NCBI GenBank assembly: GCA_028288405.1
Contig: JAQBNS010000052.1
Location: forward strand, 30,284 to 94,283
Length of the DNA stretch: 64,000 nucleotides
Direction of reading: 5' to 3'
From: Chitinophagaceae bacterium
Lineage (GTDB): Bacteria; Bacteroidota; Bacteroidia; Cytophagales; Cytophagaceae
The translations under genes and the position numbers were made by a program. This document shows, in pieces, positions 10,071 to 63,001 of this stretch. Each line of letters begins with the position of its first letter. The stretch's first letter is position 1. The notes under the pieces are model-generated. The model was not told the DNA's origin. It was given only the letters and a program-made list of their open reading frames with translations, and did not search any database.

Positions 10071-10082
10071 TTAAAATAAGTA

Positions 10083-10254
10083 GTGGCAAGTTGTAAGTGG
10101 TAAGTTGTAAGTCTTTGATAAAGCGTCACAGATTTCTATTTCACCACTTCCTTTTAAATTTACTTAATAACAAGCGCTTATGGGTTATAAAGCGAAAAGC
10201 CGTATTTATAAGTCTTATTTATCACTTACAACTTACCACTTATCACTTACAACT
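10083..10254. repeat. Heptad-repeat inverted element, class AAGTGGT/AAGTTGT, copy 1
   Basis: The left arm (10083-10112) runs GTGGCAAGTTGTAAGTGGTA... and the right arm (10223-10254) is its approximate reverse complement. Both arms are 7-bp words, AAGTGGT or AAGTTGT, in tandem. A unique AT-rich core of about 110 bp separates them. It fills most of the bshC/cysE divergent spacer. Related copies are at 12085 and 62054. It is not simply a terminator, because both flanking genes point away from it. Confidence 0.85.
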
Positions 10255-38754: not shown

Positions 38755-40647
38755 ATGAAAATCTGGTTAACGCTTATTCTTACAATTGTCCTATTTATTG
38801 AAAATGGCTACGCGCAGCAGTTTCAATTGAATGGTGACGGATTAGCATTGGGTGGAAATGCTTACAGGTTGACATTAGATGACTACAACCGGGCAGGTTC
38901 CATGTGGTACAAATTGGATCATGACCTCAATAAGCCTTTTAGTATAACAGGACAATTATTATTTGGAGGTAGAGATGTCTTTGGAGCGGATGGAATAGCA
39001 TTTGTATTTCAAAACGGTTGTTTGAACGCCGGAACTGCAGGTGGAGGAATTGGCTATTCCGCTATGCCAGGAAAATCTTTCGCTGTTGAATTTGATACGT
39101 TTGAAAACTCCGCCGCAACAGGATCCTTTGAAAATCATGACCCTGCTTATGATCATATCGCAGTAGAGAAAATGGGTAATGTAGATCATGCCAATGCTAC
39201 TGATAACTTATTTGGTCCTGTACAAGCAAGTGCTGCCAAAGCGAATATTGAAGACAGTCTTTGGTACGACTTTACTATTTCTTACGATCCGGTCTCTCAT
39301 TTATTTCAGGTATATTTCGACGGTACCTTAAGAGTATCGATGACCTATGATATCTATGCCAACATTTTTGCACCTGATCCTTACGTATACTGGGGTTTCA
39401 CCTCATCTACAGGCGGACAATACAACTACCAGGCTGTCTACATCAATAAAAATCTAACCACTTACGCACTTCCCGATAAAGCGATTTGCCCTGGTGGCTC
39501 TGTTTCTGTATCATTGCCTCCTATCAGTAGATTCTCTGGTAGAAATGTAGCTTTAGGTAAAGCTACCTTAGCATCAAGTATGATCAGCAGCCCTTCAGAA
39601 GCGGTAGATGGTAATGTCAATAGCCGTTGGGAAAGTATACAAGCCCACGATCCGGAATGGATGTACGTTGACCTGGGCTCTCCCCATGATATTGACAGCA
39701 TCAAACTCGATTGGGAAACGGCGTATGCTTCCTTATATCATATTGATGTGTCCAGCGACGCTGTCACATGGACTACGATATATAATGAAACAGATCCTAC
39801 ACGATTGAGTGCATACGTACAACCCAATCTGATTGACACGATCATTGTTTCCGCTAGTAATGTACGATATGTAAGGATGTATGGCACAGCCAGGGCAACA
39901 CCTTACGGGTATTCTATTCATGAATTTCAAATCTTCGGAAAACCAAAATATGTCTGGTCTCCTAACGATGGTTCTATTAGTCCCGATATCAACAGTGCTA
40001 ATCCTACCTTCACACCGGCAGTTACCACGACTTATTCTCTCGTCTATCCGGACTTCTGTACAGGCGCCGTCATCTATAACATGACCATTACAGTAGACTG
40101 TACATTACCGCTAGAGCTGACTTCATTCGATGTCATCAAAGTCGGTAACAAAGGTCACTTGACATGGACTACTTCACTCGAAGAAAATACGCATCATTTC
40201 ACCATCATGAAATCGCTGGATGGTATCAACTTCACGCCTCTTGGTCGTGTAGCAGCAGCGGGTAATAGTCATTCCTTAAGAAACTATTATTTTGATGACA
40301 CTGATTTGCCGGCCAGCGGGACCGTTTATTACCAACTCGTAACAACAGACATTGACGGCAGCAGCAACAATAGTCCTATCCGATTATTGAATCTAAAAGA
40401 AGAAAACCTATACATTTCAAGTCCTGTATTTGACGAAGAGACTTCTCTCATCCTACCAGGCGAAACAAAATCACTGCAACTAACAGTGGTTGATGCTGTC
40501 GGAAGAGTATTATTAGAAGAATACCACACAGATGTAACGAGTCCGGTTTATTTTGGAAAATCACTTCCTCCTACGGTCGGCTTCTACGTCGTGATTGTTC
40601 AGACAGAGACGTTGAATAAAACGTTTAAGGTGGTGAAAAGGAAATAA
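38755..40647 (+). CDS. Secreted L-type lectin / discoidin-domain protein with T9SS-type C-terminus
   Basis: About 630 residues. The ATG at 38755 begins a signal peptide (MKIWLTLILTIVLFIENGYA); the track start at 38668 adds 29 residues and overlaps the promoter box. Domains are an L-type (legume-like) lectin (about 25-235: FGADGIAFVFQN, FAVEFDTFEN), an F5/8 type C/discoidin domain (about 265-400: ALGKATLASSM, DGNVNSRWES, YSIHEFQIFG), a PKD/Ig-like part, then LELTSFDVIKVGNKGHLTW. The C-terminus GFYVVIVQTETLNKTFKVVK has the form of a type A T9SS sorting domain. Probably a carbohydrate-binding cell-surface or secreted protein. Confidence 0.82.
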   Translation: MKIWLTLILTIVLFIENGYAQQFQLNGDGLALGGNAYRLTLDDYNRAGSMWYKLDHDLNKPFSITGQLLFGGRDVFGADGIAFVFQNGCLNAGTAGGGIGYSAMPGKSFAVEFDTFENSAATGSFENHDPAYDHIAVEKMGNVDHANATDNLFGPVQASAAKANIEDSLWYDFTISYDPVSHLFQVYFDGTLRVSMTYDIYANIFAPDPYVYWGFTSSTGGQYNYQAVYINKNLTTYALPDKAICPGGSVSVSLPPISRFSGRNVALGKATLASSMISSPSEAVDGNVNSRWESIQAHDPEWMYVDLGSPHDIDSIKLDWETAYASLYHIDVSSDAVTWTTIYNETDPTRLSAYVQPNLIDTIIVSASNVRYVRMYGTARATPYGYSIHEFQIFGKPKYVWSPNDGSISPDINSANPTFTPAVTTTYSLVYPDFCTGAVIYNMTITVDCTLPLELTSFDVIKVGNKGHLTWTTSLEENTHHFTIMKSLDGINFTPLGRVAAAGNSHSLRNYYFDDTDLPASGTVYYQLVTTDIDGSSNNSPIRLLNLKEENLYISSPVFDEETSLILPGETKSLQLTVVDAVGRVLLEEYHTDVTSPVYFGKSLPPTVGFYVVIVQTETLNKTFKVVKRK

Positions 40648-40648
40648 G

Positions 40649-40706
40649 TAAGCGGTGAAGAGTGAAGAGTAAACAGAAATGCTCACTGTTCACTCTTCAC
40701 CGTTTA
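40649..40706. repeat. Heptad hairpin, class GTGAAGA/GTGAACA, copy 1
   Basis: TAAGCGGTGAAGAGTGAAGA and its inverse TTCACTCTTCACCGTTTA form a stem of about 26 bp with few mismatches and a 6-nt loop, starting 2 bp after the lectin stop. The track ORF at 40679 reads through the right arm, giving a spurious N-terminus MLTVHSSPF. Confidence 0.85.
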
Positions 40707-40747
40707 CAAAAAATAAGTATCTTACATCGCAACAGAATCTCCTTGCG

Positions 40748-42881: not shown

Positions 42882-42959
42882 ATGGCCGTCTTATTCCTTA
42901 TCGCAATACTGGTATTTGTATACATGTGCTATGTATTATTAAAACCCGAAAAATTTTAA
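42882..42959 (+). CDS. kdpF: Potassium-transporting ATPase subunit F
   Basis: 25 residues, MAVLFLIAILVFVYMCYVLL then KPEKF. The hydrophobic helix ending in (K/R)PEKF is the KdpF signature. It stabilises the KdpABC complex in the membrane. Too short for the ORF track. 11 bp before kdpA. Confidence 0.88.
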   Translation: MAVLFLIAILVFVYMCYVLLKPEKF

Positions 42960-42970
42960 CAAGATCATTT

Positions 42971-44671
42971 ATGTCGTACACAGAACTATTAGGAGTATTA
43001 CTCTTTTTCTTCGCCACTTTCCTATTGGCGATTCCCTTGGGCAAATACATTGCAAAGATATATGCCGGTGAGAAAACGCTATTGGATCCCATTTTCAATC
43101 CGATAGAAAGAACGTTTTTCAAATGGAGCGGAATCGATGCCACGAAACAGATGAACTGGAAACAGCATCTGTCGGCGATGCTAACCATCAACATGGTTTG
43201 GTTTTTAATGGCCCTATTTATTTTAATGAACCAGTCGTGGTTACCATGGAATCCGGATGGCAATCCAAACATGACCGCTGACCTGGCTTTTAATACCTCC
43301 ATTTCTTTCCTTGTGAACTGCAACCTGCAGCATTACTCGGGAGAGTCAGGTGTATCGTATTTCTCACAGATCTTTGCCTTGATGTTTCTACAATTCGTAT
43401 CCGCAGCTACAGGTATGGCAGCAGCGGCTGTGCTCTTCAATGCCTTGAGAGAACGAATTTCAGATCAACTGGGTAACTTCTACAACTACTTCCTTAAAAG
43501 TGCCACCCGCATCTTGCTTCCATTATGTATTATCGTATCGGTCATCCTATTGTTCAGAGGAACACCTATGACGATGGAAGGCAAAGACACCATGATCTCC
43601 ATGGAAGGTGATACAATACATGTATCACGTGGTCCTGCTGCGGCGTTCATTGCCATCAAGCACTTAGGCACAAATGGCGGCGGATTCTTCGGTGTCAACT
43701 CTGCACATCCTTTTGAAAATCCTGATTACTTCACCAACATCGTGGAAATGGTAGCGCAAACTATCATTCCTTTCGCTATGATTTTCGCACTAGGGTTTTA
43801 CCTGAAACGAAGGAAACTAGCCTGGATGATTTTTGGTGTCATGACGCTTGAATTCGTGTTGTTGGTGGTACCCGCCATTATCAGTGAAGTACAAGGTAAC
43901 CCCGCCATACAGGCCATGGGCATAGACCAATCGCAGGGAGCGATGGAAGGGAAAGAAGTACGCTTTGGCGCTGCCGCCTCAGGTTATTGGAGCATCATCA
44001 CCACTGTTATTTCTACCGGTTCTGTCAATGCCATGCACGACAGTAGCATGCCCATCTCCGGATTAACACAATTGCTATCCATGATGGTCAATGCAATTTA
44101 CGGAGGTTGCGGTGTAGGTATATTAAACTTTTATGTATTCATCATACTCGCCGTATTCATCAGCGGATTAATGGTAGGGCGCACACCTGAATTCATGGGT
44201 AAAAAGATCGAAGCACGTGAAGTGAAAATCTCTATGATCGTCGCCCTCTTCCATGGTTTCTTAATTCTTGTCAGTACAGCCTTAGCGTCCTCCATCTTCA
44301 TCAACAACCCTGAAATTGGCTGGCTGAATAATCCCGGTTTCCATGGATTCAGCGAAATGCTGTACGAATACACTTCTTCTTCGGCCAACAACGGCAGTGG
44401 ATTTGAAGGGTTAGGAGACAACACGCCTTGGTGGAATATTTCAACAGGAATTGTTTTACTGCTTTCCCGCTTCATCCCGATCATCGGACCGATTGCGATT
44501 GCAGGAATTCTTGCCAATAAAAAATACATTCCGGAAAGTGCAGGTACCTTGAAAACAGACACCGCTACTTTTGGACTGATGGTCTTCGCAGTCATTGTCA
44601 TCACGGCTGCTTTGTCTTTCTTTCCTGCCTTAACGCTAGGGCCTATTGCAGAGTATTTCTCAATGAGGTGA
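42971..44671 (+). CDS. kdpA: Potassium-transporting ATPase subunit A
   Basis: 566 residues from ATG 42971 (MSYTELLGVL); the track start at 42926 lies inside kdpF. Channel-like subunit with about ten membrane helices. The four selectivity-filter segments are present: NLQHYSGESG, GTNGGGFFGVNSAHPFENP, NAIYGGCGVG and SSANNGSGFEGLGDN. It binds and conducts K+ for KdpFABC. The last codons (ATG AGG TGA) run into a heptad repeat that adjoins an antisense gene, an unusual break between kdpA and kdpB. Confidence 0.96.
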   Translation: MSYTELLGVLLFFFATFLLAIPLGKYIAKIYAGEKTLLDPIFNPIERTFFKWSGIDATKQMNWKQHLSAMLTINMVWFLMALFILMNQSWLPWNPDGNPNMTADLAFNTSISFLVNCNLQHYSGESGVSYFSQIFALMFLQFVSAATGMAAAAVLFNALRERISDQLGNFYNYFLKSATRILLPLCIIVSVILLFRGTPMTMEGKDTMISMEGDTIHVSRGPAAAFIAIKHLGTNGGGFFGVNSAHPFENPDYFTNIVEMVAQTIIPFAMIFALGFYLKRRKLAWMIFGVMTLEFVLLVVPAIISEVQGNPAIQAMGIDQSQGAMEGKEVRFGAAASGYWSIITTVISTGSVNAMHDSSMPISGLTQLLSMMVNAIYGGCGVGILNFYVFIILAVFISGLMVGRTPEFMGKKIEAREVKISMIVALFHGFLILVSTALASSIFINNPEIGWLNNPGFHGFSEMLYEYTSSSANNGSGFEGLGDNTPWWNISTGIVLLLSRFIPIIGPIAIAGILANKKYIPESAGTLKTDTATFGLMVFAVIVITAALSFFPALTLGPIAEYFSMR

Positions 44672-44726
44672 AGAGTGAGTAGCGAAGAGTGAATAGGGCT
44701 CTTGACTGCTCGCTCACTCTCACAGC
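44667..44726. repeat. Heptad hairpin, class GTGAAGA/GTGAGCA, copy 2, between kdpA and an antisense gene
   Basis: GGTGAAGAGTGAGTAGCGAA and its imperfect inverse GCTCGCTCACTCTCACAGC, with a loop around GGGCTC. It contains the stop codons of both kdpA (plus) and the four-helix-bundle gene (minus), so both reading frames end inside the repeat. Confidence 0.82.
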
Positions 44727-45079
44727 TTTGTCCTAACAGAATTTATCAACCCACTTAACAACTTAGAGATGAAATCTAGTAACCGATTAAGCTCATCATA
44801 TCTTTCAATTGAAATGTACTTTAATCTCCTAGCGATGATAAGTAAAGTGTCTACTTCTGACAATGAACCTCTCGAAATAAAGAGAAAGTGTAAAAACTCT
44901 TTGGAAGTATTTCTCCCGGCACCTTCAGCAATATTATTCGGGATAGATACTGACGCTCTTCTTAACTGTGCAGTCAGCCCAAATACCTCATGTTTAGGGA
45001 ATTCTTCTGTCACTGCATAAATACGAATTGTAAATTCAATTCCCTTTTTCCAGGCATCCAATCTTTGATGGGGTTTCAT
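44720..45079 (-). CDS. Four-helix-bundle protein (S23/intervening-sequence protein family)
   Basis: 119 residues from ATG 45079 ([20 protein letters not shown]). The track start at 45178 would run 33 codons into kdpB on the other strand. [35 protein letters not shown] and [12 protein letters not shown] are hallmarks of the family first seen in 23S rRNA intervening sequences; the cellular role is unknown. It lies antisense between kdpA and kdpB, whose start is only 14 bp from its own, and its stop lies in a heptad hairpin, suggesting a secondary insertion. Confidence 0.88.
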
Positions 45080-45092
45080 AAAATTTAAAAAA

Positions 45093-47144
45093 ATGAAAAA
45101 AAATAAACTATTTGATCGCAAGATAATAAAAGATTCGATTGTACAATCATTTGTCAAATTGAATCCCAGGTATCTCATAAAAAACCCAGTAATGTTCGTA
45201 GTAGAAGTATGTACAGCAGTAATGTTGGTGGAAACACTCTATTCACTGCTCACTGCTCACTCTTCACCGTCATATAACCTTATAATATTCATCACGCTGC
45301 TTTTCACGCTCCTCTTCGCTAATTTTGCAGAAGCCATTGCGGAAGCACGTGGTAAAGCACAAGCAAATAGCTTAAGAAAAACCAGAGAAGAAACTCCGGC
45401 TAAAAAAGTGCAAGCCATAGGAGAAATGTATTTCGATGAAATCATCGTTGTATCTTCTTCGCATCTAAAAAAGGGCGATGTATTCGTTTGTGAAACCGGA
45501 GATGTGATACCAATGGATGGAGAGATCGTAGAAGGCATAGCGACCATCGATGAAAGTGCCATCACAGGAGAAAGTGCGCCGGTAATCAGAGAAGCAGGTG
45601 GAGACAAAAGTTCGGTAACGGGTGGAACAAAAGTCTTGTCAGATAAAATCAAAGTCAAAGTGACCACCGAACCGGGAGAAAGTTTCTTGGATAAAATGAT
45701 TGCTCTTGTTGAAGGTGCAAGCCGACAAAAAACACCGAATGAAATTGCATTGACTATTTTGTTGGCTGGGTTTACGTTGATATTTATACTCGTGACCATC
45801 ACGCTCAAACCCTTTGCAGATTATGCCAATACGCCGATCACGATCGCGTCTTTCATCGCGTTGTTTGTTTGCCTTATTCCTACCACCATCGGCGGGCTGT
45901 TATCCGCTATAGGCATTGCCGGTATGGACAGAGCGCTTCGTGCCAATGTGGTTACGAAATCCGGTAAAGCTGTCGAAACAGCAGGAGACATTGACGTATT
46001 GCTGTTGGATAAAACGGGTACCATAACCATTGGCAATAGAAAAGCGACTCACTTCTATCCTGCACATGGAACAGATGAACAAAGTTTTTTACAAGCCTGT
46101 ATGCTCTCTTCTTTAGCCGATGAAACTCCGGAAGGAAAATCTATTGTGGAATTGTGTAAACAGTTAGGAGTAAAGAGTGAAGAGAACCATTCACTACTCA
46201 CTCTTCACTCTTCACACACCTTAGTCAAATTCACCGCCGAAACCAGAAGCAGTGGAATAGACATGGATGGCATAAGAATTCGCAAAGGTGCTACGGATGC
46301 GATACGCAAATTATCTGAAAAGGCTGGTCACATTTTCCCGAAAGAAATCGAAGAGAAAGCCAAGAAGATCGCCAGCGGCGGTGGCACACCGTTGGTTGTT
46401 TCTGAAAATGAAAAAATCATTGGTGTGATCGAACTTCAGGACATCATTAAAGAAGGCATGAAAGAACGTTTTGAACGCCTGAGAAAAATGGGTGTAAAAA
46501 CGGTGATGGTGACTGGTGACAATCCGCTTACGGCAAAATATATTGCGCAGAAAGCAGGTGTGGATGATTTCATCGCAGAAGCAAAACCGGAAGATAAAAT
46601 GGAATACATCCGCAAAGAACAACAAGCGGGAAAACTGGTGGCCATGATGGGTGACGGTACCAACGATGCACCGGCCTTAGCTCAGGCTGATGTGGGAGTG
46701 GCCATGAACAGCGGTACACAAGCAGCTAAAGAAGCGGGCAACATGGTTGATTTAGATAACGATCCTACTAAACTGATCGAGATCATAGAGATTGGAAAAC
46801 AATTGCTGATGACCAGAGGAACGCTAACGACGTTTAGTATTGCCAATGACGTCGCCAAATACTTCGCCATCGTACCCGCTTTGTTTGTCACTTCTATACC
46901 TGCTTTACAGGGATTGAACATCATGAAGCTGAGCAGTCCGGAAAGTGCCATTCTCTCCGCGATCATCTTCAATGCAATCATTATTCCTGCATTGATTCCC
47001 TTAGCGCTAAAAGGCGTAAGCTATAAACCCATTGGTGCATCCGCATTACTGAGAAGGAATCTTTTCATCTACGGTCTCGGAGGTATTATTATCCCGTTTA
47101 TTGGCATCAAAATTATTGATGTGCTTATTTCCCTTGTATTTTAA
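45093..47144 (+). CDS. kdpB: Potassium-transporting ATPase subunit B (P-type ATPase)
   Basis: 683 residues. The catalytic subunit has [14 protein letters not shown] (actuator), the phosphorylated Asp in [16 protein letters not shown] (about 309), [19 protein letters not shown] (hinge) and the usual membrane helices. ATP hydrolysis drives K+ movement through KdpA. Two segments, [11 protein letters not shown] (about 49-59) and [10 protein letters not shown] (about 368-377), are translated GTGAAGA-class heptad repeats. The first is in the TM1-TM2 loop; the second is in the nucleotide-binding domain before [11 protein letters not shown]. All core motifs are intact, so it is probably functional. 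Confidence 0.95.
45238..45271 (+). repeat. Heptad repeat arm inside kdpB (single arm)
   Basis: CTATTCACTGCTCACTGCTC then ACTCTTCACCGTCA: four tandem 7-bp words of the GTGAAGA class (complement orientation), with no inverted partner nearby. It stays in frame, coding [10 protein letters not shown] in the TM1-TM2 loop. Confidence 0.8.
46169..46217 (+). repeat. Heptad hairpin inside kdpB
   Basis: AAGAGTGAAGAG and CTCTTCACTCTT form a perfect 12-bp stem around a 16-nt loop, extended by CACTACT words. It is read through in frame as [17 protein letters not shown] in the variable region before [11 protein letters not shown]. Confidence 0.82.
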
Positions 47145-62052: not shown

Positions 62053-62053
62053 T

Positions 62054-62185
62054 AAGTGGTAAGTGGTAAGTTGTAAGTGGTAAGTCAAAAAATCTAATCC
62101 ATTTTCACGCCATATTAATTATGCGTTACTTTGTACTAAGTTGAAGGTAAACCTACTTACCACTTACAACTTATCACTTACAACT
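62054..62185. repeat. Heptad-repeat inverted element, class AAGTGGT/AAGTTGT, copy 3
   Basis: The left arm AAGTGGTAAGTGGTAAGTTG continues to 62085; the right arm ACTTACCACTTACAACTTAT continues to 62185. The AT-rich core is about 69 bp. The right arm ends at the base before the glycosyltransferase ATG, so any ribosome contact region lies in the repeat. Because a terminator precedes it, the promoter of the next gene must lie inside the element; TTACTTTG (62126-62133) is one mismatch from a -7 box. Confidence 0.87.
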
Positions 62186-62950
62186 ATGATTTCCGCTGTC
62201 ATCATTACCAAAAATGAAGAATCACACATTGCGCGATGTATTCAATCGCTGTTGCCTCTTACGGATGATATTATCATCATTGACTCAGGAAGTACAGACA
62301 ATACGGCAGGTGTATGCAAACAATTTCCGGTTACATTTGAAGTAAAAGCATGGCAGGGATTTTCTTCTGCCAAAAACTATGGTAATAGTTTAGCGAAATA
62401 TAATTATATCTTATCCATTGATGGTGACGAAGAATTGTCAAAAGACATGCAGCAGGCCATTGCTGAATTGATGAAGCAACCTGCTCACCAGGCTTATGAT
62501 TTGCCTTTCCTTACCAACTTCTGCGGCAAATGGATCAGACACGGCGCCTGGTATCCTGAATCACACATTCGCATCTTCGATAAAACCCTGGTGAAATGGG
62601 AAGGTGATATCCATGAAAAGCTGATCATTCCTGCCACTGCGACGCTAGGAAAATTGAAGAAGGGATATATTCATCACTATACGATCAGCAACCTGAAAGA
62701 ATACATCGAAAAAATTAATCACTATACTTCCCTGCACGCAGAGGATATGTTCAAGCGTGGGAAAAAAGCCAGTTTCATTAAACTTTTCATCGCTCCCTGC
62801 TTTAGTTTTTTCAGAGATTATATCATCAAGCTCGGTATACTCGATGGATACCACGGTTACACGATTGCCAAGCAAAGTGCAAACTATGTTTTTTTAAAGT
62901 ATATGAAGTTGAAAATGATGGAGGCGAGAGAGCTGAAAACAGAGAACTGA
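62186..62950 (+). CDS. Glycosyltransferase family 2 (WaaE/KdtX-like)
   Basis: 254 residues from ATG 62186 (MISAVIITKNEE). The track start at 62141 reads 15 codons of repeat sequence (NLLTTYNLSLTT) and is rejected. The GT-A core has SAVIITKNEESHIARCIQSL, IIDSGSTDN and the metal site LSIDGDEELSKDM. The C-terminal part (IRIFDKTLVKWEGDIHEKL, YTSLHAEDMFKRGKKAS) resembles LPS core beta-glucosyl/heptosyl-type transferases. The final residues RELKTEN are coded by a heptad hairpin. Probably involved in cell-surface glycan assembly. Confidence 0.88.
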   Translation: MISAVIITKNEESHIARCIQSLLPLTDDIIIIDSGSTDNTAGVCKQFPVTFEVKAWQGFSSAKNYGNSLAKYNYILSIDGDEELSKDMQQAIAELMKQPAHQAYDLPFLTNFCGKWIRHGAWYPESHIRIFDKTLVKWEGDIHEKLIIPATATLGKLKKGYIHHYTISNLKEYIEKINHYTSLHAEDMFKRGKKASFIKLFIAPCFSFFRDYIIKLGILDGYHGYTIAKQSANYVFLKYMKLKMMEARELKTEN

Positions 62951-63001
62951 AAACTGGAAAAATTCTGTTCTCTGTTCTCTGTTTTCAGCTCTCTGTTCTC
63001 T
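62928..63001. repeat. Heptad hairpin, class CTGAAAA/CAGAGAA, copy 2
   Basis: GAGAGCTGAAAACAGAGAAC / GTTCTCTGTTTTCAGCTCTC, a perfect 20-bp stem (62928-62947 with 62974-62993), extended by further CTGTTCT words. It contains the last codons and stop of the glycosyltransferase and ends 6 bp before the stop of the convergent deacetylase. Related to the hairpin at 35677. Confidence 0.87.

Follow-up and report, generated by a model that had tools for sequence, protein, structure and literature searches.

Heptad-armed mobile units with an IVP/S23 gene as sole open reading frame, and a probable atypical copy between kdpA and kdpB of a Chitinophagaceae bacterium

The kdpA and kdpB genes of a Chitinophagaceae bacterium are separated by an antisense gene of the S23/IVP family, bordered by tandem seven-base (heptad) repeats. 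We regard this insert as probably an aberrant version of a compact mobile element composed of a heptad arm, a leader, the IVP gene and a second arm, with the IVP protein as its putative mobility factor. Units of this kind insert whole at operon junctions. The two arms of an element are complementary to each other, while those of different elements are unrelated except for a short common core. The phenomenon is both real and general: a known kind of element, the intervening sequence (IVS) of rRNA genes, is extended here to a class of mobile units that occur genome-wide. Coordinates below refer to the window, that is, the whole stretch of 64,000 nucleotides that was analyzed.

The kdpA gene (42926..44671, plus strand; PF03814, 763 bits; TIGR00680) ends in ATG AGG TGA inside a heptad array, (GTGARKA)4, which occupies 44668..44696 of the plus strand, 3' of the IVP gene, and reads GTGAAGA GTGAGTA GCGAAGA GTGAATA G; no run of this heptad occurs in shuffled windows. 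The array pairs with an opposing arm on the minus strand (44699..44723) to form a hairpin of -29.4 kcal/mol, the stability of which exceeds that expected from composition only modestly (z -2.4). The IVP gene (44720..45079, minus strand) starts with ATG and encodes a four-helix-bundle protein of 119 amino acids, which matches PF05635 (131.4 bits against a curated cut-off of 33.8; E-value 1.9e-38), TIGR02436 (127.4 bits against 24) and PDB entry 2GSC (E-value 1.6e-31). Its stop codon (44720-44722) falls in the opposing arm, and its start lies 13 bp from that of kdpB (45093..47144, plus strand; TIGR01497). An earlier note on this DNA had described the S23-family gene and the placement of both stop codons in a heptad hairpin, and these observations hold; the near adjacency to kdpB that it reported, given there as 14 bp, also stands. 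The GTGAAGA-class hairpin that it named is present at kdp, but GTGAAGA is one of many heptads: in the genome, sampled in 20-kb pieces, strong period-7 arrays of several sequences occur about once per 13 kb.

Many heptad hairpins carry no gene. In the window these include a hairpin with the same heptad as the kdp array (40655..40700), inverted heptad pairs enclosing 111 bp (10082..10254, AAGTTGT / ACTTACA) and 69 bp (62053..62185), and a hairpin of another family (62935..63000, GAGAACT / TCTGTTC). Within kdpB itself there are an in-frame hairpin (46162..46215), absent from the two related genomes G001 and G002, and an in-frame array on the minus strand (45239..45267), encoding SLLTAHSSP, which is a candidate displaced 5' arm. 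A match to MIR529 at 40641-40714, far below the gathering score, was dismissed as an artefact of the hairpin.

In general, the IVP gene is flanked on both sides by arms that form an inverted pair. Tandem heptads follow IVP stop codons at many loci in the family, their sequence differing from locus to locus; these 3' repeats are specific to period 7, and a complementary array stands 5' of the gene. A search for GTGAAGA alone missed this pattern, which was revealed by a period-7 score independent of sequence. Scored in this way, matched inverted arms flank 28 of the 52 IVP genes of the bacterium's own family and 5 of 241 control genes; in a phylum-wide and named sample the figures are 68/96 and 5/148. 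The enrichment of repeats beside S23 genes that the earlier note had proposed to look for is thus found. In the pooled set, which leaves out mraY-linked genes, complementary ends resembling those of an IVS stem are present at 99 of 155 IVPs (23/43 once the genes are clustered at 50% identity), the kdp copy having them only via a distant partner in kdpB, compared with 40 of 975 controls and 18 of 351 controls with noncoding flanks. When arms are swapped between elements, a match is obtained in only 7.2% (own family) and 4.4% (wider set) of cases; each element has a heptad sequence of its own. Most arms have period 7, and about one third of the IVPs lack arms at the threshold used. Arms of period 8 were seen on some IVP elements (loci L146, L240, L265, L269 and L270). 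A conserved IVP-like gene without arms lies just upstream of mraY in several genera (seven cases, assigned by eye: L082, L083, L084, L148, L150, L151 and L154).

Armed IVP genes were found in about twelve phyla: Bacteroidota, Cyanobacteriota, Firmicutes (Natroniella), Acidobacteria, Gemmatimonadetes, Nitrospirae, Armatimonadetes, Chloroflexota (Herpetosiphon), Proteobacteria (Gallionella), Cloacimonadota, Kiritimatiellae and TA06. S23/IVP genes are present in 90 of 118 sampled genomes of the phylum, and across 19 genomes their number correlates with that of heptad arrays (rho 0.70, p 0.0008).

Despite their variety, the arms share a core. The 5'-arm heptads of 76 period-7 elements align to TNNTNAG (G 82%, A 73%), with an information content of 1.915 against 1.506 ± 0.033 for column-permuted heptads. 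Since it makes no sense to orient the arms of an inverted repeat by the direction of the gene, we read polarity as the order of strands: in 68 of the 76 elements (68:7) the AG strand is the first and the CT strand the last. The same order holds for 16 of the 17 inverted heptad pairs that were detected blind to IVP genes (16:1). Among blind pairs from random samples with an interior of 348-421 bp, three of four contain an IVP gene. Further, stop codons in all three frames are read inward from 48% of the arms, compared with 35 ± 3% when heptads are permuted and with 28% in the outward direction. Such stops would soften insertion into operons, and this fits the termination of both kdpA and the IVP gene within the repeat.

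Direct evidence that the unit moves comes from filled and empty sites on cyanobacterial plasmids. Plasmid C of Trichormus variabilis carries a 428-bp arm-IVP-arm insert that is absent from plasmids of Nostoc linckia and Tolypothrix; between Trichormus or Scytonema and these two, the flanks are 97.7-99.7% identical and the insert measures 414-428 bp. In Trichormus the flank ends in AAAAAGTAAT, the insert begins with AAATCAGAATTCAG and, beyond the IVP gene, closes with GAGTTCTTCTTT, after which the flank resumes with GTAATTAACAAA; GTAAT is duplicated. At a site in Nostoc C052/ATCC 53789 an insert of 419 bp is accompanied by duplication of TTCTA. A 5-bp target duplication is indicated by these two sites, the only clean ones, other sites being ambiguous and too diverged to read; for orthologous IVPs in genus g64 no empty site was close enough to read the ends. 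Over their whole length, arms included, the elements at both duplication sites share about 80% identity with each other and with an element of Aulosira; their flanks are unrelated, and homology stops at the arms. As judged from the substitution ratios, the IVP protein is under purifying selection in these copies at unrelated loci (dN/dS 0.10-0.15; 0.03-0.15 across all IVP comparisons). On another plasmid the element at the same place has been cut down internally to a relic (L359). In Nostoc edaphicum an antisense IVP gene stands between nrdB and nrdA in the geometry seen at kdp, and one relative is empty. IVP genes also occupy the cas6-cas4 and cas10-cmr3 intervals of CRISPR operons on cyanobacterial plasmids (L361, L362) and are missing from close relatives; these are likely insertions and not Cas accessories. 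The units thus show the marks of a transposable element, namely occurrence at unrelated loci, exact empty sites and target duplication, the last clean at two sites only. They do not encode the transposase of an insertion sequence: no transposase lies inside the unit, and the IVP is the sole open reading frame of what is inserted. The proposal of the earlier note that these genes and heptad repeats travel together is borne out by the exact ends of the plasmid insertions.

The kdp copy is atypical and not an intact unit. The earlier note had pictured a small insertion made of a hairpin and a four-helix gene without a transposase; the last point is correct, but the unit has arms on both sides, and at kdp no arm stands directly 5' of the IVP gene, where the flanks score like controls (the usual position is about 20-110 nt before the conserved IVP domain). 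The best partner of the array at 44668-44696 is the in-frame kdpB array at 45239-45267, inverted and matching at 25 of 29 positions, and the same layout is found in the closest relative, G001, whose kdpB is 92% identical. There an IVP gene occupies the same place and orientation beside a longer one-way heptad array. The empty junctions that the earlier note had suggested seeking in relatives do exist: in G002, of the same genus, kdpA and kdpB are 25 bp apart without an IVP gene, which is likewise missing from the junctions of G010, G014, G008 and G026. In G034 the junction holds a different repeat hairpin, and in G028 a 680-bp stretch with small antisense genes (loci L044 and L042); given these contents, the kdpA-kdpB junction is a recurrent insertion spot.

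The IVP proteins of the window and G001 are 67% identical (dN/dS 0.09). Their synonymous divergence (pS 0.73) is higher than that of kdpA (0.57) and kdpB (0.55), and since they are more diverged than their flanks, at least one of the two copies was probably replaced or arrived separately. The first 60 codons of kdpB (45093-45270), corresponding approximately to the segment between the IVP gene and the in-frame array, are 45% identical to G002, compared with 85% elsewhere in the gene, the window and G001 both being diverged. This 5' end is 39-57% identical to all of the 292 genomes of the order except G001, and no closer foreign donor was found among them. The element may have entered before the window and G001 lineages split, or it may have entered twice, and the adjacent 5' arm would then have been lost. 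The array in the kdpB loop could be the displaced 5' arm of the kdp element or a separate solo insertion.

In the bacterium's own genus, the site behind a given stop codon may be taken by one or another of several unrelated repeats that form stems. One such family, CCCCTAAATCCCCTAAAGGGGACTT ... AAGTCCCCTTTAGGGGATTTAGGGG, occupies in G001/G002 the post-stop site where an IVP element would otherwise stand; in the bacterium's own genome it is nested in a heptad pair (L196; L197, site C; L162, 19480-19780). A dispersed repeat of 113 bp (G000:C50, L155, 5752-5864) has copies about 80% identical at well over 50 places in G001-G003. Heptad arrays are seen at rearrangement breakpoints, an A-C inversion in G003 and an A-B inversion in G002 (L155 compared with L197, L198 and L199). 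At site A of G002 and G003, heptad arms surround a hairpin resembling an intrinsic terminator, with no gene (L197, 3415-3570; L199, 2290-2470).

We propose that the element, of about 415-480 bp, consists of a heptad arm, a short leader, the IVP gene and a complementary heptad arm, and that the ring-forming IVP protein could be its own mobility factor. Because the arms vary in sequence yet stay complementary and heptad-periodic, we infer that the stem rather than fixed termini is recognized. The IVP might bind this stem either as RNA or as extruded DNA, and may recruit a host or trans-acting nuclease for integration. The 7-base period would allow the arms to re-pair in any register after slippage, and the inward stops in several frames could make the effect on an invaded operon milder. 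Gene-less heptad hairpins may be non-autonomous relatives or relics. Weighing against the proposal are the IVPs and the mraY-linked branch that lack arms, the limited number of clean target duplications (two) and, at kdp, the missing adjacent 5' arm, the control-like flanks and the modest excess stability of the hairpin. Self-mobilization is stated here as a supposition since the IVP has no known catalytic domain; profile searches of the protein matched none.

This last result, the lack of a transposase in the unit and the 5-bp duplications at two sites would also agree with a non-autonomous element of the MITE type that depends on a DDE transposase encoded elsewhere, the IVP being a passenger or modulator. 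Duplications of 5 bp are usual for DDE enzymes. However, such transposases usually need conserved termini, while the core common to all arms is a loose one, and an open reading frame kept at dN/dS 0.03-0.15 in moving copies would be unusual for a passenger; we consider this explanation rather unlikely. Far less credible is a passive gathering of IVP genes and heptad arrays, each separately, at tolerant operon junctions. Heptad arrays without IVPs are indeed common in the bacterium's own genome, and the exchange of unrelated stem-forming repeats after the same stops in its genus would suit it, but arms match within and not between elements, the homology of copies at unrelated loci stops at the arms, and the exact insertion of arm, IVP and arm in one piece contradicts it.

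Two further explanations involve RNA. A heptad stem would enclose the IVP message, and the kdp IVP weakly matches the Avd and bAvd models, at about 28 bits each (27.8 against a cut-off of 80 and 28.3 against 40), so that an Avd-like IVP might act with a reverse transcriptase copying a stem-loop RNA. No match to PF00078 was found in 11 of 20 IVP-rich genomes, including that of the window; a reverse transcriptase was therefore rejected as a general requirement, and retro-mobility seems quite improbable. We also find it unlikely that RNA processing is the main role, with the stem as an RNase III site in operon mRNA, the IVP shielding or tuning the cut, and spread incidental. The Coxiella IVS is indeed a stem with an S23 open reading frame, excised by RNase III (PMC4990558), and armed units lie inside the nrdB-nrdA, cas6-cas4 and cas10-cmr3 operons; against this, the copies at kdp and nrd run antisense to their operons and presence is sporadic among close relatives. 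Such processing is compatible with a mobile unit and does not exclude it.

The nearest known systems are the rRNA IVSs of Leptospira and Coxiella, stems with an S23 open reading frame that are sporadic, have been called selfish and are sited in 16S/23S rRNA genes; the S23/IVP "four helix bundle protein" has no known function, and its relative 2GSC is a homopentameric ring (PMC4990558). The units described here resemble an IVS in length (about 420-450 nt), in complementary stem-forming ends and in the single S23/IVP gene. They differ in intergenic location within protein operons, heptad arms, 5-bp duplication and many copies per genome, and no rRNA was found near the IVP in 40 IVP-related loci, rRNA location being a mark of the IVS. 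Stem-forming heptad arrays with the class II motif NNTGAGT, of origin left open, are known from P6b of the Nostoc trnL intron (PMC4476775), and this motif fits the rotated arm core, NNTNAGT. TAACTGA-type direct heptad repeats occur in Beggiatoaceae, cyanobacteria and Bacteroidota; their origin was left unresolved, with the speculation that the mobile element could be a protein that binds the repeats (PMC4679880), and they have a CT core, as in IVP arms. Both were described without a gene partner, whereas here heptad arrays are the arms of IVP elements. The IVP is a distant sequence relative of the Avd (bAvd) protein of DGRs, but its unit has neither a reverse transcriptase nor a template/variable repeat. 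REP/RAYT systems and MITEs likewise comprise small elements with inverted repeats, of which many copies lack a gene and one form carries it; unlike them, the IVP unit has no tyrosine or DDE transposase and its arm sequence is not fixed. RAYT-like genes are present in the bacterium's own genus. No paper linking IVP genes with heptad repeats was found in a literature search that covered few subscription journals.

The IVP unit is apparently a widespread and previously unrecognized kind of tiny mobile element. Tentatively, and as a possibility rather than an expectation, IVP/S23 could define a new class of autonomous elements whose mobility is driven by the ring protein, with gene-less hairpins, including the in-frame ones of kdpB, as their offspring and the rRNA IVS as a ribosomal branch. 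As the sole gene of a heptad-armed mobile unit, S23 links the rRNA IVSs, the heptad repeats of cyanobacteria, Beggiatoaceae and Bacteroidota, and orphan genes in the kdp, nrd and CRISPR operons, and its function becomes directly testable.
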